Below are positions 38,148 to 47,022 of a stretch of DNA of 64,000 nt, one piece after another. How positions within the stretch are numbered: position 1 is the first letter of the stretch; each line of letters starts with the position of its first letter. Under the pieces are notes generated by a model that saw only the letters and a program-made list of their open reading frames with translations, was not told the DNA's origin and did not search any database. Origin of the DNA: Haladaptatus sp. QDMS2 (GTDB lineage Archaea; Halobacteriota; Halobacteria; Halobacteriales; Halococcaceae); contig NZ_CP119791.1 in NCBI RefSeq assembly GCF_029338295.1, forward strand, positions 2,666,001 through 2,730,000, read 5' to 3'. Both the position numbers and the translations under genes were made by a program.

Positions 38148-38308
38148 AATCGATTATTACATTGATTTTACCACACTTATTGATTTCGGGGGACAGCACC
38201 AATCTGCGGTCGTTTCTGACAGTGTTCGCCCTGTAAACTGGACGCACGTGTAGTTCAGTCGGGGCAGGCAGGCGAACACTTTTGCCAGTTGTCGTGCAAT
38301 GGAACCCC

Positions 38309-38830
38309 ATGGCTGACAATGACACTCAATATGTTCCGGAGCTATCGGACGACCTCTCGGAGACTGACTTCGACCGGTTGACCGGTGTTATTACGGACGG
38401 GTTCATCGGTGCCATCGGCGGACTGGTCGGGACTGCCGTGATGACGGTGGTGCTGGTCGTGGCCGCGAGCCTCGGCGCGTTCGAAATCAACCAGTTCGCC
38501 TTGTTCGCTTCGCTGTTCGGCGCGGACTTCCTGCTCCCGAACAATCCGACCGCAATCGGGTACGGGGCGTTCCTCATCGGCGGGATGGTGTTCTGGCCGC
38601 TGATGCTCGCCTCGCTCGGCGCGTATCTGCCCGGCGAGAAGTACGCGACGAAGGGCCTCTCCTTTGGTTTCGTCCTCTGGACGGGCTTCGCGCCAGCGTT
38701 CTACACTGGCTTTGGCGGCCTCGCGCTCGCGCTCTACCTCCTGTTGACGCTCATTGGCCACTTCGCCTACGGATTCACGCTCGGGTCGGTGTTCGACTAC
38801 TTCTCGACCCGGCCAAGCACGCTCGTCTGA
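38309..38830 (+). CDS. DUF6789-type membrane protein
   Basis: 173 residues from ATG 38309. An acidic cytosolic N-terminus of about 30 residues precedes four or five helices: FIGAIGGLVGTAVMTVVLVVAAS, FLIGGMVFWPLMLASLGAYL, LSFGFVLWTGFAPAFYTGF and LALYLLLTLIGHFAYGFTLG. Such proteins sit divergently to haloarchaeal terminal oxidase genes, as here with coxB 161 nt away, hinting at coregulation. No catalytic motif is seen. Confidence 0.7.
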   Translation: MADNDTQYVPELSDDLSETDFDRLTGVITDGFIGAIGGLVGTAVMTVVLVVAASLGAFEINQFALFASLFGADFLLPNNPTAIGYGAFLIGGMVFWPLMLASLGAYLPGEKYATKGLSFGFVLWTGFAPAFYTGFGGLALALYLLLTLIGHFAYGFTLGSVFDYFSTRPSTLV

Positions 38831-38840
38831 ACCCGCAACC

Positions 38841-38848
38841 TTTTTGTA
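38841..38848 (+). promoter_or_regulatory. TATA element ahead of the argG leader ORF
   Basis: TTTTTGTA lies about 28-30 nt before the ATG at 38873, the spacing of a leaderless start. The T run could also end the upstream DUF6789 transcript. Confidence 0.45.
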
Positions 38849-38872
38849 CGACACCCCCAAGGAATTCAACAC

Positions 38873-38959
38873 ATGCAACGGACTGCCGTCGTTGGCTCAC
38901 GCGTCTCTGTGAGCACGGCGTCCGTCTCCTTCTCCGTGCGACCGCGACCGGGCCTCTAG
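38873..38959 (+). CDS. candidate 28-residue leader peptide of the arginine genes
   Basis: The frame begins MQRTAVVGSRVSVST and ends FSVRPRPGL before TAG. Four of 28 residues are Arg, two of them in adjacent CGA-CCG pairs just before the stop. A GGGCC/GGCCC hairpin (38950-38963) overlaps the stop, and a second perfect hairpin follows before argG. A TATA element sits about 28 nt upstream of its ATG. Arg codons at the end of a short ORF ahead of arginine genes is the layout of transcription attenuation leaders. This is inference, and conservation was not tested. Confidence 0.5.
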   Translation: MQRTAVVGSRVSVSTASVSFSVRPRPGL

Positions 38960-39029
38960 GCCCTTAATCACATTTCTCCATCGTCCGGTTCGCATCACGT
39001 CCTCAGAACTCACAACCGCTGGTTCTGAG
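38950..39029 (+). promoter_or_regulatory. paired hairpins in the argG leader
   Basis: GGGCCTCTAGGCCC at 38950-38963 and CTCAGAAC/GTTCTGAG at 39002-39029 (8-bp stem, 12-nt loop). They lie between the leader stop and the argG start, where ribosome position could decide between structures. Confidence 0.45.
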
Positions 39030-39058
39030 CGTCATCACCCATCGTACACACCACACCA

Positions 39059-40297
39059 ATGACAACAGAATCCACCAAAGTCGCCCTCGCCTTCTCCGGC
39101 GGGCTCGACACGACCGTTTGCGTCCCACTGCTCGAAGAAGAATACGGCTACGACGAAGTCGTCGGCATCACCGTCGACGTCGGCCAGCCAGCAGAAGAGT
39201 TCGCGGAAGCCGAAGAGACCGCAGAAGCCCTCGACTTAGAACACTACGTCATCGACGCGAAAGCCGAGTTCGCGAACCTCTGTCTCGACTCCGTGAAGGC
39301 CAACGCCGACTACCAGGGCTACCCGCTCGGCACGGCGCTCGCCCGCCCGATCATCGCCGAAGCCATCCTCGAAAAGGCCCTCGACGTCGGCTGTACCGGC
39401 ATCGCCCACGGCTGTACGGGCAAGGGCAACGACCAACTGCGCTTCGAGGCCGTCTGGCGCGAATCAGACCTCGAAGTCATCGCCCCCGTCCGCGAACTCG
39501 GCCTCACCCGCGAGTGGGAAATCGAGTACGCAGCGGAGAAGAACCTCCCCGTAGAGGGCGGCAACGAGGGCGCGTGGAGTATCGACACGAACCTCTGGAG
39601 TCGCTCCGTCGAGGGCGACGACTTAGAGGACCCCGCCTACATCCCACCCGAGGACATCTACGAGTGGACCACTGCGCCCACTGGCGAGACAGAACTCGTC
39701 GAAATCGAATTCGAGAACGGCTATCCCGTCGCCATCGACGACGAGGAGATGGACGCCGTCTCCGTCATCGAGTACCTGAACGAGTTCGCCGGGAAGTTCG
39801 GCATCGGCCGCACCGACATGATGGAAGACCGCATGCTCGGCCTGAAAGTGCGCGAGAACTACGAGCACCCCGCCGCGACGGTGCTGCTCAACGCCCACGA
39901 GGGCTTAGAGCAACTCGTCCTCACCAAAGAGGAACGCTCGTTCAAGCAGCAAATCGACGCCCAGTGGTCCGAGAAGGCCTACGAGGGCCTCGTGAACGCT
40001 CCGCTCGTGAAGGCGCTCGAAGGCTTCATCGACACGACCCAGGAGCGCGTCACCGGCACGGTGACGGTGAAGTTCCAGGGCGGACAGGCCCGCGTCGTCG
40101 CGCGCGAGAGCGAGTACGCGGTGTACTCTGAGTCGGCCGCCTCGTTCAACACCGAGACGGTCGACGGCATCACGCAGGCCGATGCGACGGGCGTCGCGAA
40201 GTACCACGGCTTCCAGTCGCGCCTCGCGAACTCGATTCTCGCGGAGGCTAAGCAGGAAGCACCCACCCCGATGGCGGACGGCGGCGAGGACCAGTGA
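39059..40297 (+). CDS. argG: argininosuccinate synthase
   Basis: A 412-residue ATP pyrophosphatase. The PP-loop ALAFSGGLDTTVCVP is at residues 9-23, followed by ITVDVGQP. LGTALARPIIAEA and GIAHGCTGKGNDQLRFE form the citrulline and aspartate sites. It condenses citrulline with aspartate using ATP to argininosuccinate. The length is normal. A leader of about 100 nt separates it from a short Arg-rich ORF. The argH start overlaps its stop, so argGH are coupled. Confidence 0.96.
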   Translation: MTTESTKVALAFSGGLDTTVCVPLLEEEYGYDEVVGITVDVGQPAEEFAEAEETAEALDLEHYVIDAKAEFANLCLDSVKANADYQGYPLGTALARPIIAEAILEKALDVGCTGIAHGCTGKGNDQLRFEAVWRESDLEVIAPVRELGLTREWEIEYAAEKNLPVEGGNEGAWSIDTNLWSRSVEGDDLEDPAYIPPEDIYEWTTAPTGETELVEIEFENGYPVAIDDEEMDAVSVIEYLNEFAGKFGIGRTDMMEDRMLGLKVRENYEHPAATVLLNAHEGLEQLVLTKEERSFKQQIDAQWSEKAYEGLVNAPLVKALEGFIDTTQERVTGTVTVKFQGGQARVVARESEYAVYSESAASFNTETVDGITQADATGVAKYHGFQSRLANSILAEAKQEAPTPMADGGEDQ

Positions 40298-41754
40298 AGA
40301 TGGTAGAGGAGTTCGCAGACGGTGACGTCGTTCGGCGGGAACGCTTCAGCGGCGGCCCCGCCCGCGGATTCCTCTCCTCGATGGACGCAGACGCTCGCAT
40401 CTTCACCGCCGACCTCGAAGTCGACCGCGCCCACGTCCTGATGCTCGCAGAGCAGGGCATCATCGACGAGACGGAGGCGGGCCAGATTCTGCAGGCGTTG
40501 AACGTCGTCGAAGTGGAGGGCTTCGCGGCCCTGCCCGACGGCGAGGACATCCACGCCGCCATCGAGACGGCAGTCATCAACCAAATCGGTCCCGTCGGCG
40601 GGAAGATGCACACCGCACGCAGTCGCAACGACGAGGTAGCGGCGTGCATCCGCCACCGCTTCCGCGCGGACCTGCTCGATGCCGCCGAGGCGACGCTCGC
40701 GTTCCGCGAGGTGCTCGTGGAGGTGGCCGAGAAACACGCAACGACGCTCATGCCCGGATTCACGCACCTCCAGCCCGCCCAGCCGACGACGGTTGGTCAC
40801 TACCTGCTCAGCTACGAGCAGGCGCTGTCACGGGATACAGCGCGTCTCATGGACGCCTACTCGCGTGTAAACCAGTCGCCCCTCGGCGGGGCGGCCTTTG
40901 CGGGCACTCCGTTCGACATCGACCGCGAGCGCACCGCGGAACTGCTCGGGTTCGACGGCGTCCTCGAAAACTCGATGGACGCCAGTTCCACGCGGGATTT
41001 CCTCGTGGAGGGCGTGAGCGCCCTCGCGAACCTCGCGACGACGCTCTCGGGACTCGCAGAAGACATCGTCGTCTTCGCGAACAAGGGGTACGTCGAACTG
41101 TCTGACGACTACTCTTCGACGTCCTCCATCATGCCCCAGAAGAAGAACCCCGACACGCTCGAACTCGTCCGCTCGACGGCGGGCAACGCGAGCGCGGGCC
41201 TGAACGGGCTGCTCACGACGCTCAAGGGACTGCCCCGGGCGTACAACCGCGACTTACAGAACGCGACGCCCCACGCCTGGGCCGCCGCGGACGCCGTGCT
41301 CGAAGCGACGAACGTCGCCGCGGGCGCGGTGGCGACGGCGACGTGGCAAGAGGAAACACTTGCTGCTGAGGCGGGGGCCGGGTTCTCCACGGCGACCGGC
41401 GTCGCGGACCTGCTCGCGATGTCCGGCGTCCCCTTCCGCACGGCCCACGAGGTCGTGGCGACCGCCGCGGAGGAGGGCCAGGACTACGAGACGATCGCGG
41501 CGGCCGCCGAGGACCTGCTCGGCGCGCCCCTCACGGACTATGTCTCCAAAGAAGCCGTCGAGGGGGCACTCGACCCCGCACAGAGCGTCGAGAGCCGTGA
41601 TTCGCAGGGTGGGCCTGCCGTGAAGGCGGTCACTTCCCAACTCGAGACGGCCACTGACGAACTCGAATCAGACGGCGAGTGCGTAGCGTTCCACCGCGAG
41701 AACCTCCAGGAGAGCCACGACGTACTCCACGACGAGGTGAGCCAGTATGCTTGA
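40294..41754 (+). CDS. argH: argininosuccinate lyase
   Basis: A 486-residue member of the fumarase/aspartase superfamily. TARSRNDEVA and GFTHLQPAQPTT are conserved active-site blocks, and SSIMPQKKNPD is the family signature holding the catalytic serine. It splits argininosuccinate to arginine and fumarate. GTG 40294 overlaps the argG stop by 4 nt, with ATG 40300 as an alternative. A low-complexity AT-rich region of about 170 nt follows before lysW. Confidence 0.95.
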   Translation: MKMVEEFADGDVVRRERFSGGPARGFLSSMDADARIFTADLEVDRAHVLMLAEQGIIDETEAGQILQALNVVEVEGFAALPDGEDIHAAIETAVINQIGPVGGKMHTARSRNDEVAACIRHRFRADLLDAAEATLAFREVLVEVAEKHATTLMPGFTHLQPAQPTTVGHYLLSYEQALSRDTARLMDAYSRVNQSPLGGAAFAGTPFDIDRERTAELLGFDGVLENSMDASSTRDFLVEGVSALANLATTLSGLAEDIVVFANKGYVELSDDYSSTSSIMPQKKNPDTLELVRSTAGNASAGLNGLLTTLKGLPRAYNRDLQNATPHAWAAADAVLEATNVAAGAVATATWQEETLAAEAGAGFSTATGVADLLAMSGVPFRTAHEVVATAAEEGQDYETIAAAAEDLLGAPLTDYVSKEAVEGALDPAQSVESRDSQGGPAVKAVTSQLETATDELESDGECVAFHRENLQESHDVLHDEVSQYA

Positions 41755-41922: not shown

Positions 41923-42087
41923 ATGGCAGAATGTGTCGAATGTGGAGCCGACGTGGCGCTTCACGACGACTTGGAAGTGGGAGAGATCGTCGATTGTACA
42001 ACCTGCGGAGCCGAACTCGAAGTAGTGGACGTAAACCCGCCAGTCCTCGAGAAGGCCCCCGAGCTGGAAGAGGACTGGGGGGAGTAA
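41923..42087 (+). CDS. lysW: amino-group carrier protein LysW/ArgW
   Basis: A 54-residue very acidic protein. A zinc-ribbon half is formed by C4-X2-C7 and C25-X2-C28. The C-terminus ends EEDWGE, the EDWGE tail whose terminal Glu54 gamma-carboxyl is ligated to the amino group of glutamate (or aminoadipate). LysW protects and carries intermediates through the next four enzymes. Haloarchaea make lysine by the diaminopimelate route, so here it serves arginine. It is too short for many gene finders. It is followed by argX after 48 nt. Confidence 0.95.
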   Translation: MAECVECGADVALHDDLEVGEIVDCTTCGAELEVVDVNPPVLEKAPELEEDWGE

Positions 42088-42135
42088 ATTGCAGGCCACG
42101 AACTCCCAGCTGACGATGGCTCAGAGGTGGCTCGC

Positions 42136-42996
42136 ATGAACGTCGGCATCCTCTACTCGCGCATCCGCAAGGACGAGAAACTCCTGCTCGCGGAACTGCG
42201 CGACCGCGGTCACGACGTGACGAAAATCGACGTCCGCAAGGTGCAGTTTGGCCTCGACGAGGCCCCCGCCATCTTCGACGACGTGGACATCGTGCTCGAC
42301 CGCTGTCTCGCGACCAGCCGGAGCAAGTACGCGACCCAGTACGTCGCCGCCTACGGCATTCCGGTCGTGAACAGCCCGGAGACCGCCGAGGTCTGTGCGG
42401 ACAAGGCGAAAAACAGCCTCGCACTCGCACAGGCGGGCGTGCCGACGCCCGCGACGGACGTGGCGTTCACCAAGGAGGCCGCGATGGCGTCCATCGAGCA
42501 GTTCGGTTACCCGTGCGTCCTCAAACCCGTCGTTGGGTCGTGGGGCCGTCTGATGGCCAAAATCGACTCGCGGGACGCCGCCGAAGCTATCTTAGAACAC
42601 AAGGCGACGCTCGGGCACTACGAGCACAAGGTGTTCTACATCCAGGAGTTCGTGGACAAACCGGGTCGCGACATCCGCGTGCTCGCGACCGATGGCGAAC
42701 CCGTCGCCGCGATGGTCCGCAGTTCAGAGCACTGGCTGACCAACGCCGCGAAAGGGGCGAAGACGGAATCGTTCGAACTCGACGACGAGGCCAAAGAACT
42801 CGTGAAGAAGGCCAGCGACGCCGTCGGCGGCGGACTACTCGGTATCGACCTCATGGAAACGGGAGCCGGATACACGGTCCACGAGGTCAACCACACCGTC
42901 GAATTCAAGGCACTTACTGACGCCACCGACGTGGACGTGCCCGCGGCCGTCGTCGATTGGCTCGAATCCAAAGTGAAGGTCGAGGTTCCCGCCTGA
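42136..42996 (+). CDS. argX: glutamate--LysW ligase ArgX
   Basis: 286 residues, an ATP-grasp enzyme related to RimK. The N-terminal MNVGILYSRIRKDEKLL and the loop VLKPVVGSWGRLMAKI with GIDLMETGAGYTVHEVNHTVEF near the end supply the ATP-Mg site. It attaches the glutamate amino group to LysW Glu54. ATG 42136 with GAGGTGG just upstream is preferred over GTG 42127. Its stop overlaps the argC start (TGATG). LysX-type use of aminoadipate is less likely in haloarchaea. Confidence 0.93.
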   Translation: MNVGILYSRIRKDEKLLLAELRDRGHDVTKIDVRKVQFGLDEAPAIFDDVDIVLDRCLATSRSKYATQYVAAYGIPVVNSPETAEVCADKAKNSLALAQAGVPTPATDVAFTKEAAMASIEQFGYPCVLKPVVGSWGRLMAKIDSRDAAEAILEHKATLGHYEHKVFYIQEFVDKPGRDIRVLATDGEPVAAMVRSSEHWLTNAAKGAKTESFELDDEAKELVKKASDAVGGGLLGIDLMETGAGYTVHEVNHTVEFKALTDATDVDVPAAVVDWLESKVKVEVPA

Positions 42997-44039
42997 TGAG
43001 CGAGCACCTCTCTGCCGCCGTCGTCGGCGGCTCCGGCTTCACCGGCGGCGAACTCCTGCGCCTGCTCACCGGCCACCCCGACTTCGAGGTGGCCCAGGCC
43101 ACGAGTCGCGAGTACGCAAACAAGTCCGTCGGCTCCGTCCACCCGAACCTCCGGGGGACGGACCTCCGCTTTACGCAACCTGACGACCTGGAGAGCGTGG
43201 ACATCCTGTTCGCCGCGACGCCCCACGGCGTCTCGATGCAGCACATCGACGGCTTCCAGGAGGCCGCGGACACCGTCGTGGACCTGAGCGCGGACTTCCG
43301 CCTCCAGACCACGGAACAGTACGACCAGTGGTACGACGGCCACGAACGTCCCGAGTTGCTCGAAAAGTCGGTGTACGCGCTGCCGGAACTCCACCGCGCG
43401 GACCTCCCCGGCGCGGACCTGATTGCCGCTGGTGGCTGCAACGCTACGGCGACGATTATGGGGCTCTACCCGCTGTTCGAGGCGGGCATCCTCAGCGGCG
43501 ACGAGCAGGTCGTCGTCGACGTGAAAGTCGGGTCCTCTGAGGGTGGTGCGAGCGGTGGGAAAGCCTCCTCGCACGCAGAACGCTCGGGCATCGTCCGCCC
43601 CTACGCGCCCATCACGCACCGCCACGAAGCCGAAATCGAGCAGGAACTCGGCCTGCGCGTCTCCTTTACCGTCCACGCCGTGGACATGATTCGCGGCGCG
43701 GCGGCCACCTGTCACGTCTTCCCGAACGAACCCGTCTCGAAGGGTGACCTCTGGAAGGCCTATCGTGGAAGCTACGAGGACGAACCGTTCGTCCGCATGG
43801 CTTCCGGCGGCGGTGGCGTCTATCGCTACCCCGAACCCAAGGCGGTGGCCGGGACGAACTTCGCCGAAGTCGGCTTCGAACTCGACGCCCGCAACAAGCG
43901 CCTCGTCGTGTTCTCGGCCATCGACAACATGATGAAAGGCTCCGCCGGGCAGGCGATTCACGCGGCCAACATCGCCCTCGGCTTAGAAGAGACCGCAGGC
44001 TTAGACTTCCTCGGCCTGCACCCCGTGGGGGCCCCGTAG
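42996..44039 (+). CDS. argC: LysW-glutamyl phosphate reductase
   Basis: 347 residues from ATG 42996. The NADPH-binding AAVVGGSGFTGGELLRLL is at the N-terminus and the catalytic cysteine lies in AAGGCNATATIMGLYPL. SSEGGASGGKASSHAERSG is typical of the LysY/ArgC subgroup that acts on LysW-bound substrates. It reduces LysW-gamma-glutamyl phosphate to the semialdehyde. It is third in the operon, and argB follows immediately after its stop. Confidence 0.95.
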   Translation: MSEHLSAAVVGGSGFTGGELLRLLTGHPDFEVAQATSREYANKSVGSVHPNLRGTDLRFTQPDDLESVDILFAATPHGVSMQHIDGFQEAADTVVDLSADFRLQTTEQYDQWYDGHERPELLEKSVYALPELHRADLPGADLIAAGGCNATATIMGLYPLFEAGILSGDEQVVVDVKVGSSEGGASGGKASSHAERSGIVRPYAPITHRHEAEIEQELGLRVSFTVHAVDMIRGAAATCHVFPNEPVSKGDLWKAYRGSYEDEPFVRMASGGGGVYRYPEPKAVAGTNFAEVGFELDARNKRLVVFSAIDNMMKGSAGQAIHAANIALGLEETAGLDFLGLHPVGAP

Positions 44040-44864
44040 ATGACGACGGTCGTTAAGATAGGCGGCGCACGTGCCGTCAACCCCGAGGGCGCAGTTGCAG
44101 ACATCGCGTCTCTCGTCGAGGGAGGCGAACAGGTCGTCGTCGTCCACGGCGGCTCTACCGCCGTCGACGACACCTTAGAACGCCTCGGCGAGCAACCCGA
44201 GTACGTCGAGACCCCCGGTGGCGTCGTCGGGCGCTTTACCGACGAGACCACCATCGAGGTGTTCAAGATGGTCATGCCCGGCCTGCTAAACACCGACCTC
44301 ACGACGCTCTTGCAGAACGCAGGCGTCAACGCAGTCGGCCTCTCCGGCGTGGACGGAAAACTGCTTTCCGGCCCCCGGAAGTCGGCCGTCCGCGTGCTCG
44401 AAGACGGCAAGAAGAAGATTCGCCGCGGCGACCACTCGGGGAAGATTACCGACGTGAACGCCGACCTGCTCGAAACGCTGCTCGCGGGCGGCTACACGCC
44501 CGTCGCGACGGTTCCCATGCTCGCAGACGACGGAGTTCCCGTCAACGCAGACGCAGACCGGGCGGCGGCCGCCATCGCGGGCGCACTCGGTGCGACGCTC
44601 GTCGTCCTCACGGACGTGCCGGGCGTTCTCGCCGACCCGGACGACGCATCGACACTCATCTCGCGGGCGACGACGCCCGAGGAGTTCGCCACCATCGAAG
44701 ACGCCGCGGAAGGGTTCATGACGAAGAAGGTCATGGCCGCGACCGAGGCGCTCTCCGGCGGGGCGGCCGAAGTCGTCGTCGCAGACGCGAACGCAGAGGC
44801 ACCCCTCACCGCCGCGGTCAACGGCGGTGGGACCCACATCACTCCCGGCGCACTCCAGTCATGA
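44040..44864 (+). CDS. argB: LysW-glutamate kinase (ArgB/LysZ)
   Basis: A 274-residue amino acid kinase. Conserved blocks are TTVVKIGGARAVNP for the phosphate site, VVVHGGSTAVDDTLE, NTDLTTLLQNAGVNAVGLSG, DADRAAAAIAGAL, LVVLTDVPGV and TKKVMAATEAL near the end. It phosphorylates the gamma-carboxyl of LysW-bound glutamate. Adjacent to argC without a gap and overlapping argD by 4 nt. Length is normal for LysZ/ArgB. Confidence 0.94.
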   Translation: MTTVVKIGGARAVNPEGAVADIASLVEGGEQVVVVHGGSTAVDDTLERLGEQPEYVETPGGVVGRFTDETTIEVFKMVMPGLLNTDLTTLLQNAGVNAVGLSGVDGKLLSGPRKSAVRVLEDGKKKIRRGDHSGKITDVNADLLETLLAGGYTPVATVPMLADDGVPVNADADRAAAAIAGALGATLVVLTDVPGVLADPDDASTLISRATTPEEFATIEDAAEGFMTKKVMAATEALSGGAAEVVVADANAEAPLTAAVNGGGTHITPGALQS

Positions 44865-45988
44865 GCGGCTTCGTCTTTTCAGAAAAACCGATTCGTATCG
44901 ACTCCGGCAGCGGCGTCACTCTCACCGACGAGGGCGGCACCGAGTACCTCGATTTCGGTGCAAGCTACGCCTGTACCCCGCTCGGACACAGCCACCCGGC
45001 GGTCACGGAAGCCGTCTCCGCCCAAGCCGAGCAACTGACCTACGTGCAGGCGTCCTACCCGGTTTCCGCCCGCGACGACCTGTACGACCGGCTCGCGGAC
45101 CTCGCTCCCGGCGACATCTCGAACGTCTGGCTCTGTAACTCCGGAACGGAGGCGAACGAGGCGGCCATCAAGTTCGCTCGCAGCGCCACCGACAGCACGA
45201 AAATCGTCGCGACGACGCGCAGTTTCCACGGCCGCACCGCCGGCGCACTGTCCGCGACGTGGAAGAAGAAGTACAAAGCGCCCTTCGAACCGCTCATGGA
45301 CGGCGTGGAGTTCGTCCCCTACGGCGACGAAGCAGCGCTCGCCGAGGCGGTGGACAACGAGACGGCGGCCGTACTCCTCGAACCGATTCAGGGGGAGGGT
45401 GGCATCAATCCCGCACCCGAAGGCTACCTCCAGGCGGCCCGTGAAGTTACCGAGGAGACGGGTGCGGCGCTCGTCTTCGACGAGATTCAGACCGGCCTCG
45501 GCCGGACGGGGACGCTCTGGGCCTGCGAGCAGGCGGGCGTCGTCCCGGACATCCTGACCAGCGCGAAGGGGCTCGCAAACGGCCTCCCCATTGGCGCGAC
45601 GCTCGTCGCCGACTGGATTGCCGAGGACGCCGGACCACACGGTTCGACGTTCAGCGGCGGCCCGGTCATCTGCGCGGCGGCGAACGCCACGCTCTCGACG
45701 CTCGTCGACGAGGAGATACCAGCCCACGCCGCCGAAATGGGCGACTACCTCACGAGCCAACTGGAGGCGAAAGTCGGCGACGAGGTCCGCGACATCCGCG
45801 GCGAAGGCCTGATGGTCGGCGTCGAAGTCAAACGCGGGGCGAACCGGATGCTCCGCGACTTCGCCCTCGACCACCAGATTCTCGCGCTGCCCGCCGGACG
45901 GACCGTCGTCCGGTTCCTGCCGCCGCTCGTCATCGACGAGTCGCACGCAGACACGGTTGTAGACGCCCTCGCCGAGATACTGAAATGA
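44861..45988 (+). CDS. argD: LysW-glutamate-semialdehyde aminotransferase
   Basis: A 375-residue class III PLP aminotransferase. NVWLCNSGTEANEAAIKFAR binds the phosphate, FHGRTAGALSATWKKKYK is the substrate-side loop, ALVFDEIQTGLGRTG holds the PLP Asp, and the Schiff-base lysine is in LTSAKGLANGLPIGA. It transaminates LysW-bound glutamate semialdehyde to LysW-ornithine. Both ends overlap neighbouring genes by 4 nt. Confidence 0.94.
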   Translation: MSGFVFSEKPIRIDSGSGVTLTDEGGTEYLDFGASYACTPLGHSHPAVTEAVSAQAEQLTYVQASYPVSARDDLYDRLADLAPGDISNVWLCNSGTEANEAAIKFARSATDSTKIVATTRSFHGRTAGALSATWKKKYKAPFEPLMDGVEFVPYGDEAALAEAVDNETAAVLLEPIQGEGGINPAPEGYLQAAREVTEETGAALVFDEIQTGLGRTGTLWACEQAGVVPDILTSAKGLANGLPIGATLVADWIAEDAGPHGSTFSGGPVICAAANATLSTLVDEEIPAHAAEMGDYLTSQLEAKVGDEVRDIRGEGLMVGVEVKRGANRMLRDFALDHQILALPAGRTVVRFLPPLVIDESHADTVVDALAEILK

Positions 45989-47022
45989 CCGACCCACAGA
46001 CCCTCCTCGCGGACCTCGTCTCGATTCCCTCGGTGAGTGGCGACGAGGCCGCAGCCGCAGAGCGCCTCGCTGCCTACTTCGAAGAACACGACCGCGAGGT
46101 CTGGATTGACGAGGTTGGCAACGTCCGCGCGCCGGGCGACGACAGCGTTCTGCTCACCTCGCACATCGACACCGTGCCCGGCGAGATACCCGTGGAAATT
46201 GCGCCCGCAGAAGACGGCTCCGGAGACGCCCTCTGGGGCCGCGGCAGCGTGGACGCGACCGGTCCGCTCGCCGCGATGGCGGCTGCCGCCGTTTCGACCG
46301 GCGCGAGTTTCGTCGGCGTGGTGCGCGAAGAGACCGACTCCCTCGGCGCGCGCCACCTCGTCGAGACCCGCGAGTCGGTTCCCGACGCGGTGGTGAACGG
46401 CGAACCGAGCGGCTCGAACGGCATCACGCTCGGCTACCGCGGGTTCCTGCCCGGGACGTACATCGCGACGAGCGAGTCCGGGCACACCTCCCGGCCCGAG
46501 AACAACGCACTCCAGGACGCCATCGCGTGGTGGAGCGCGGTGGCCGAGGAGTTCGCCGTCCCCGAAGACACGCCCGTCTTCGAGCAAGTGACGGCGAAAC
46601 CAACCGCCTTCCACGGCGGGACGACCGAAGACGGCCTCGCGGTGGAAGCGACCGCCACCATCCAGTTTCGCATCCCGCCGAGTCTCACCGCGGACGACAT
46701 CCGCGAGATTGCGGAGTCGCACCTCCACACGGGAACCATCACCTGGCGTCGCCACATCCCGCCCGTGATGATGAGTCCCCGGACGCCAATCGCCCGGGCG
46801 TTTCGGGTGGCGATTCGCAAAGAAAGCATGAAACCGCGCTTGCTCCGGAAGACCGGCACGAGCGACATGAACATCTTCGCCGGCGAGTGGGACTGCCCGA
46901 TGGTGACCTACGGACCCGGGAACTCTGACCTGGACCACGCGCCGAACGAACACCTCCCCCTCGCGGAGTTCGACCGCGCCGTGTCGGTGCTCGAATCCGT
47001 CTGTGAGAACTTGCAATCATGA
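45985..47022 (+). CDS. argE: LysW-ornithine hydrolase
   Basis: A 345-residue M20 family metallopeptidase, the LysK/ArgE type. LLTSHIDTVPGEIPVE carries the first metal ligands, WGRGSVDATGPLAAM the bridging Asp, VVREETDSLGARHL the catalytic Glu pair, and GTSDMNIFAG the late ligand. It cleaves the LysW-ornithine isopeptide bond to free ornithine and recycle LysW. Overlaps both neighbours by 4 nt. Confidence 0.94.
   Translation: MTDPQTLLADLVSIPSVSGDEAAAAERLAAYFEEHDREVWIDEVGNVRAPGDDSVLLTSHIDTVPGEIPVEIAPAEDGSGDALWGRGSVDATGPLAAMAAAAVSTGASFVGVVREETDSLGARHLVETRESVPDAVVNGEPSGSNGITLGYRGFLPGTYIATSESGHTSRPENNALQDAIAWWSAVAEEFAVPEDTPVFEQVTAKPTAFHGGTTEDGLAVEATATIQFRIPPSLTADDIREIAESHLHTGTITWRRHIPPVMMSPRTPIARAFRVAIRKESMKPRLLRKTGTSDMNIFAGEWDCPMVTYGPGNSDLDHAPNEHLPLAEFDRAVSVLESVCENLQS

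Follow-up and report, generated by a model that had tools for sequence, protein, structure and literature searches.

Based on comparison of sequences from many genomes, we propose that the argG operon of Haladaptatus sp. QDMS2 is gated by a ribosome-based, cis-acting amino-acid sensor whose preferred output is premature termination of transcription, a reading that we hold to be probable. We further think it likely that the locus belongs to a general ribosome-mediated leader-peptide attenuation system with which haloarchaea control arginine and branched-chain operons, a system of distinct design and apparently the first in Archaea. The sensor side of this proposal is strongly supported by comparison, and the output step, termination, is inferred without expression data.

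The window, i.e. the whole stretch of 64,000 nucleotides that was analysed (contig NZ_CP119791.1, positions 2,666,001 to 2,730,000), carries the following elements ahead of argG, all read from the sequence:

38841..38848, + strand: TATA-like box TTTTTGTA of the putative promoter P1, starting 32 nt before the leader ATG
38873..38959, + strand: leader ORF MQRTAVVGSRVSVSTASVSFSVRPRPGL, 28 codons, stop codon TAG
38939..38947, + strand: putative regulatory block Arg-Pro-Arg (CGA CCG CGA), with CGA at 38939-38941 and 38945-38947
38950..38963, + strand: hairpin 1, GGGCC-TCTA-GGCCC
38964..38982, + strand: G-free pyrimidine-rich tract directly 3' of hairpin 1
39002..39029, + strand: hairpin 2, a perfect 8-bp stem CTCAGAAC/GTTCTGAG with a 12-nt loop

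An earlier note on this DNA had described a 28-codon ORF with the TATA spacing of a leaderless transcript, a GGGCC/GGCCC hairpin overlapping its stop and a perfect 8-bp hairpin before argG, and all three are confirmed at these positions. The spacing of the P1 box predicts that the leader mRNA is leaderless or nearly so. The leader stop codon (38957-38959) sits in the loop of hairpin 1 and takes in the first base of its 3' arm, placing it inside a GC hairpin 99 nt upstream of argG. Taken alone this leader is a weak case, since only two Arg codons lie near its end (both CGA; two others are found further up), and it is passed over by a caller requiring three Arg among the last 12 codons; once its relatives are compared, the sequence stands far above chance. 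A scan for sigma-70 promoters and terminators found nothing, archaeal promoters being outside its coverage, and Rfam searches gave no match near the gathering score in 38700-39200 of the window and no match up to E=1 at 11 argG/ilvB loci. The + strand also carries, shortly before P1, a 182-codon ORF of membrane-protein-like sequence (38282-38830), for which no NCBIfam match at E<=1e-10 was found.

Downstream of the leader, NCBIfam models identify the arginine genes:

39059..40297, + strand: argG, argininosuccinate synthase, which opens the operon (NF010392, 660.6 bits; TIGR00032, 453.3 bits; both over cut-off)
40294..41754, + strand: argH, argininosuccinate lyase with an uncertain start codon (TIGR00838, 471.3 bits, over cut-off)
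41923-42087, + strand: lysW/argW
42127-42996, + strand: argX/lysX-like
42957-44039, + strand: argC
44040-44864, + strand: argB
44861-45988, + strand: argD-like (TIGR00707, 408.3 bits, just below the 410.05 cut-off)
45985-47022, + strand: argE/lysK-like

Within the 41923..47022 cluster the models over cut-off were TIGR01206, TIGR02144, TIGR01850, NF010661 and NF003367. As the arginine genes all lie on one strand, a single attenuator could govern nearly the whole pathway, provided that the cluster from argG to the argE/lysK-like gene is co-transcribed, as we presume.

ArgG is present in 292/292 genomes of the class. We compared 130 argG upstream regions (the window, 29 loci and 100 fetched stretches, oriented by the ArgG motif) from 129 genomes and 59 genera; family, genus and genome labels such as f1, f5, g43 and G206 are anonymous codes. 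The strict detector called for an ORF of 8-70 codons with a TATA-like box 25-36 nt ahead of its start codon and a stop codon enclosed by a hairpin of 5 bp or more, with no more than one G among the 12 nt that follow. It was designed after the argG and ilvB leaders had been seen, and hit rates at these genes are not independent of its design; its zeros at other genes and its genome-wide background are. It found leaders at 104/130 argG loci in 46/59 genera, and at 97/123 when seven loci chosen by a leader-DNA search match were left out. An Arg-rich ORF with TATA spacing was recovered by a relaxed rule at 22 of the 26 misses; in G136 and G174 this rule picked the wrong ORF and the leader is visible by inspection or in other scans, and in G288 the leader is present and a good TATA is absent. 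With strict, relaxed and by-eye cases taken together, a recognisable leader precedes 127/130 argG loci in 57/59 genera, and the leader ORF with its Arg codons is conserved in nine of the eleven families sampled. The loci without one are G013 (f2), G020 (f9) and the second argG copy of G206, a full-length gene at C78:38483-39718 (locus L156) that lies directly downstream of another gene. Outside the class, the strict detector gave 0/20 at argG loci of the same phylum (20 of the 53 such genomes listed).

GC-rich genomes yield many small ORFs and GC hairpins, and the leader of the window is short with two terminal Arg codons, so that chance or an artefact of base composition had to be weighed. 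A looser rule (at least three Arg codons and a hairpin) is satisfied by 117/130 real regions compared to 8.4% of 2,600 dinucleotide shuffles, and with at least five Arg codons by 56 of the 130 compared to 1.1% of shuffles. In the window's own genome the strict detector matches eight places in 1.73 million strand-bases, including the leaders of argG and ilvB, and in control regions upstream of leuA (30), hom (29), trpC (30), trpE (30) and hisG (30) it matches none (0/149). These controls, the sparse background, the shuffles and the 57/59 genera refute the chance reading, and we set it aside.

The same zeros led us to reject the notion that every amino-acid operon has such a leader, as far as leuA, hom, trpC, trpE and hisG are concerned. 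Many haloarchaeal trpC promoters (L206-L218) carry a GTACA...TGTACA dyad around the predicted start, beside a CTTATG-like box; the dyad looks like a repressor operator, and no leader peptide is found there. One further weak detector match, MCIHKSFQKVFCA*, lies at G000 C1:310416 on the - strand (in L379), has an imperfect TATA and may be due to chance; the ORF 265 nt downstream of it begins like what we take to be purQ. A scan of genome contigs for the literal leader-end pattern returned six bacterial contigs, with no bearing on the question.

In the 104 strict argG leaders the P1 box lies 30-35 nt before the leader ATG and matches at 6/6 positions in 89, the box itself being a criterion of the detector. 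Leader length varies from 21 to 57 codons and the body of the peptide is unrelated between families. Two genomes of the window's genus carry a leader of the same length and frame, in which each of the three codon positions takes a similar share of the nucleotide differences (4/4/4 and 5/4/3) while the last seven codons are free of them, and therefore selection acts on the terminal codons and not on the peptide body. CGA accounts for 308/379 Arg codons (81%) at positions -11 to -4 before the stop of the 104 leaders; outside this block it makes up 26/271 (Fisher p 2e-80, without correction for relatedness), and in the argG genes of 30 genomes 1% of the 421 Arg codons. Judged from these counts, the CGA-rich terminal block is conserved while the leader body drifts. 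Counting Arg codons by frame (443, 303 and 203) is only mildly informative because CCGCGACGG reads Arg in another frame too. We did not find tRNA-Arg(UCG) among the tRNAs of the 0.86 Mb scanned, the rest of the genome lying outside the scan. The expectation that the ending RPRPGL would be conserved before argG did not hold: the ends vary with the sequence of the hairpin (PGR, PGL, PAL, RAL, RAR, PGSP) and RPRPGL was rejected as a motif, the constant unit at argG being, by the sequences at hand, CGA-rich Arg codons abutting the hairpin. The broader suggestion of control by a ribosome stalling on the leader, in turn, gains support from the retention of ORF and Arg codons across nine of eleven families and 57 of 59 genera, so that the refuting outcome named in the note, their loss in relatives, did not occur, and from the CGA bias confined to the block beside the hairpin.

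A second leader, absent from the earlier note, precedes ilvB. It was first noticed by eye, as a criterion of at least eight Ile/Leu/Val in the last 14 codons had missed it. In the window's genome it lies between leuA and ilvB:

G000 C1:1188293-1188388 (locus L176), - strand: ilvB leader MQALAATTQSQATSGAAVQLIIVGV, with Ile/Val codons, stop in a hairpin and a G-poor tract

Counterparts are found at L177-L203. Among 30 ilvB upstream loci from 29 genomes, the strict detector finds 25, and 27/29 genomes carry the leader when two by-eye cases are included, so that at both operons a short ORF stands between an inferred promoter (by TATA spacing) and the first structural gene. The ilvB leaders end in IIVGV, RIVGAL and similar, their stop lies inside a hairpin of the GGGG/CCCC type, and the tract after the hairpin contains 4% G. 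Ile and Val make up 40% of the last ten codons of ilvB leaders as compared to 7% in argG leaders, and Arg 3% as compared to 43%. The regulatory codons are thus cognate to the product of the pathway, Arg before argG and Ile/Val before ilvB, and are not exchanged. They are also rare synonymous codons (CGA, ATT, GTA): ATT makes up 62% of Ile codons in ilvB leaders versus 8% in ilvB genes, and GTA 38% of Val codons versus 1%, although the GTA bias may be partly structural because GTA is often part of the stem; sensitivity to tRNA charging is not part of this evidence. The twin shares no sequence with the argG leader. A genome-wide search with hairpin patterns, confined to stems starting GGGS, gave seven distinct places, of which only argG and ilvB are convincing. 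We regard the ilvB twin, in which the same frame serves another pathway and that pathway's amino acid, as the strongest evidence for a system. What comparison establishes at this level is the ORF, the cognate rare codons, the hairpin, the tract, their geometry and their recurrence at a second operon. At L176-L188, some ilvB genes were seen by eye to have, a few nt ahead of the ATG, a GGAGG or GGGAGG motif, in keeping with translation from a long 5' UTR.

It is conceivable that the ORF encodes a functional Arg-rich microprotein acting in trans, as its position, promoter and Arg-rich end are all conserved. The variation in length and the unrelated bodies speak against it, and so do within-genus substitutions that fall evenly over codon positions; the choice among synonymous rare codons would be irrelevant to a peptide, and the ilvB twin repeats the design without shared sequence. 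We therefore give this idea hardly any credence and return to a leader that acts through its translation.

In each of the 104 strict argG leaders hairpin 1 starts 7-11 nt ahead of the stop codon, and it is conserved across families with 13 different arm pairs among 104/130 relatives, including GGGCC/GGCCC, GGCCC/GGGCC, GGGGC/GCCCC, GGGGTC/GACCCC and CGGGCTC/GAGCCCG. Each hairpin's own arms are complementary, as the detector requires, while arms swapped between genomes pair in 26%; by this measure the stem sequence shifts between families and the pairing is kept. The predicted fold is firm, with a mean pairing probability of 0.92-0.98. The end of the last cognate codon lies at -2 to +2 nt relative to the stem at argG and at -1 to +3 nt at ilvB. 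Such a palindromic, GC-rich repeat, ~80-90 bp after the predicted P1 start, could instead be the DNA operator of a repressor with the small ORF incidental, and in f5 and f7 another palindrome stands before a second promoter (P2, below). An operator would not be expected to exchange the sequence of its arms between families and stay paired, to be locked in position to an in-frame stop, or to be accompanied by codons matching the pathway amino acid at two operons, and we judge this explanation very improbable.

Variant leaders with CGG-rich Arg codons were observed upstream of argG in g43/g44 of f5 (L125, L142, L123, L127, L136). Their hairpin (CGGCCATACGTGGCCG in g44) lies inside the ORF, some ten codons before the stop, and therefore the ribosome must cross it.

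The stretch that follows hairpin 1 is almost devoid of G. At positions +1 to +15 the G frequency is 1-3% in relatives (n=114), and 110/111 hairpins called without any tract filter have no more than one G in the next 12 nt. The tract contains ~30% U, with C exceeding U, and is mostly unstructured (77% of 24-nt tracts have an MFE of 0). No U-run was found after hairpin 1 in the window, and in its family the longest T run is mostly 2-3. In this genome T5 runs mark gene ends (25/144 convergent ends versus 4/89 operon-internal ends), and a hairpin with a G-poor tract as an ordinary haloarchaeal gene-end terminator was rejected, being found at 7/144 and 4/89, respectively. As the U-run was looked for and is absent, we do not count the leader among canonical attenuators with an intrinsic terminator; it would act in the same manner, and falls within the wider group of cis-acting leader peptides as a new variant. 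In a Haloferax volcanii reporter a hairpin motif terminated 59% of transcripts (PMC7237163), and therefore termination without a U-run is plausible.

The tract may, alternatively, be the site of factor-dependent termination. We know of no Rho in archaea, and therefore FttA (aCPSF1) would have to serve in its place: a departing ribosome would expose the tract, whereas a stalled one would exclude FttA. A nearly G-free and mostly unstructured tract suits this scheme; steric exclusion of FttA by the archaeal ribosome has been put forward as a hypothesis (PMC11616081), and mycobacterial cys leaders with polyY motifs have been proposed to work with Rho (PMC1262725). Yet FttA is described as preferring U-rich RNA (PMC11616081), which the C-richer tract is not, and the tract would lie beyond the reach of a ribosome stalled on the Arg codons, so that the hairpin would still need a part. 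We consider factor-dependent termination unlikely, without dismissing it, and keep to a switch that operates at the hairpin.

The earlier note had suggested checking whether both hairpins are conserved; hairpin 1 is, across families, and hairpin 2 is not general. The stem of hairpin 2 is identical and its loop diverged in two genomes of the same genus, and stems of different sequence occupy its position in the sister genus. Its mean folding z is -1.49 in the window's family (n=11) and near zero in most others, and as a universal element it was rejected as clade-specific. Pairing of the Arg segment with downstream RNA has a mean z of -0.9 and is strong by z-score only in f10 and f4, and in consensus folds an outer helix joining the Arg codons to downstream RNA appears in f10 and f12 only. 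We found no alternative antiterminator helix and no mutually exclusive pair of hairpins that is universal across families.

These observations bear on whether the same sensor might have another output, the stalled ribosome altering translation or stability of the argG or ilvB mRNA rather than causing premature termination, for example by shielding the RNA from nuclease cutting beside hairpin 1 or by refolding it near the gene start. The lack of a U-run is in its favour, as is the finding that genes of this genome do not characteristically end in hairpin and tract; the segment of Arg codons can, in f10 and f12, pair with RNA that lies 25-60 nt downstream and closer to the start of argG, and the GGAGG seen by eye before some ilvB ATGs could be masked. 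Against it, argG lacks the GGAGG motif and yet shares the hairpin and tract, the distance from hairpin 1 to the argG start codon is 64-180 nt across loci, and no conserved structure covering the start is common to all families. Such an output remains possible, though we doubt it, and termination is the output that we prefer.

How much of argG transcription the leader could control differs between families. Full TATA matches lie 24-42 nt upstream of the argG ATG in f5 (35/48), f7 (24/36), f13 (5/6) and f6 (2/2), and are rare or missing in f12 (1/7), f1 (0/11), f4 (0/11), f10 (0/6) and f3 (0/1). In f5, f7, f13 and f6 (66/92 with the box) a second promoter, P2, thus probably bypasses the leader, and for f5 and f7 probably just one of the two promoters is under the control of the leader, as far as box spacing can tell. 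In the window's family a TATA-like box at the right distance before argG was found in 0/11, and therefore all argG transcription in this family would have to pass the leader. At argG loci of f7 (L120, L134, L122 and others) a palindrome of type TTAGAGTNNACTCTAA stands just before the second TATA-like box; in the families with P2 it is probably the operator of an arginine regulator or a general amino-acid regulator.

Based on these data we propose the following course of events. The P1 transcript would begin at or near the leader ATG, as TATA spacing suggests, and therefore the first ribosome is inferred to follow RNA polymerase closely. When the charged tRNA-Arg reading CGA is scarce, the ribosome would stall on the terminal CGA-rich codons, which end 0-2 nt ahead of hairpin 1. 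As the last cognate codon lies within ~3 nt of the hairpin, the leading edge of the waiting ribosome should cover the 5' arm (the size of the ribosome footprint being general knowledge), leaving hairpin 1 open and allowing read-through to argG and the arginine genes. When arginine is ample, the ribosome would reach the stop inside the hairpin and leave, and hairpin 1 would fold beside the G-free tract, leading to an early end of transcription, which we prefer, or to a cut in the RNA. The same device, with Ile/Val codons, would control ilvB. The design would be distinct in that the leader mRNA is leaderless, rare CGA or ATT/GTA codons abut a hairpin containing the leader's own stop, a G-free tract replaces the U-run, and the switch itself lies in whether the ribosome is present on the hairpin or has been released. 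Translation of the leader, the transcript ends, the response to starvation and the rise in read-through are all inferred here, in the absence of RNA-seq or Ribo-seq data.

In bacteria, attenuation by a leader peptide is textbook knowledge, and it relies on transcription being closely coupled to translation. The enterobacterial trp, his, leu and ilv attenuators share with the haloarchaeal leaders a promoter, a short ORF, a cluster of codons cognate to the product near its end and a hairpin before the first structural gene, as well as regulatory codons that are rare in general use; they differ from the haloarchaeal leader in its leaderless mRNA, its stop codon inside the hairpin, its archaeal host, the G-free tract in place of a U-run and the failure to find universal mutually exclusive hairpins. 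E. coli tnaC is a Rho-coupled leader in which tryptophan is sensed by nascent-chain arrest; unlike in tnaC, the sequence of the haloarchaeal leader peptide is not conserved beyond the codons. Rho-coupled leaders such as tnaC and the mycobacterial cys leaders resemble ours in that the ORF precedes a pyrimidine-rich stretch without structure, on which a termination factor could act (for cys, PMC1262725). The closest bacterial design is that of the actinobacterial ilvB leaders (Corynebacterium, Mycobacterium, Streptomyces), short ORFs with runs of Ile/Val/Leu codons overlapping a candidate terminator hairpin; their hairpins are followed by polyU runs (both points from PMC1262725), whereas the haloarchaeal ones are followed by a G-free C/U/A tract, and the hosts belong to different domains. 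Motif S12 of H. volcanii is similar in being a coding-region hairpin that ends 59% of reporter transcripts without a T-stretch motif, and dissimilar in that the available part of its description ties it neither to a leader peptide nor to amino-acid control (PMC7237163). In the open-access literature, judged from titles and the beginnings of abstracts, we found no archaeal leader-peptide attenuator; the words 'attenuation' and 'leader peptide' are absent from a review of archaeal coupling (PMC8116511), and PMC8303175 and PMC5852579 contain nothing on the argG/ilvB leader loci.

That rare regulatory codons raise the sensitivity of attenuation is established theory (PMC1183508), and this rare-codon rule appears here outside the bacterial domain. 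Archaea are reported to couple transcription to translation, and yet we found no regulatory circuit using it in print. The Arg leader and the independent Ile/Val leader suggest that archaea sense shortage of amino acids by stalled ribosomes, as bacteria do. They make it directly testable in H. volcanii whether the archaeal ribosome gates RNA polymerase in response to tRNA charging, and offer a natural substrate for studying how archaeal RNA polymerase and FttA respond to a ribosome that is stalled or released.
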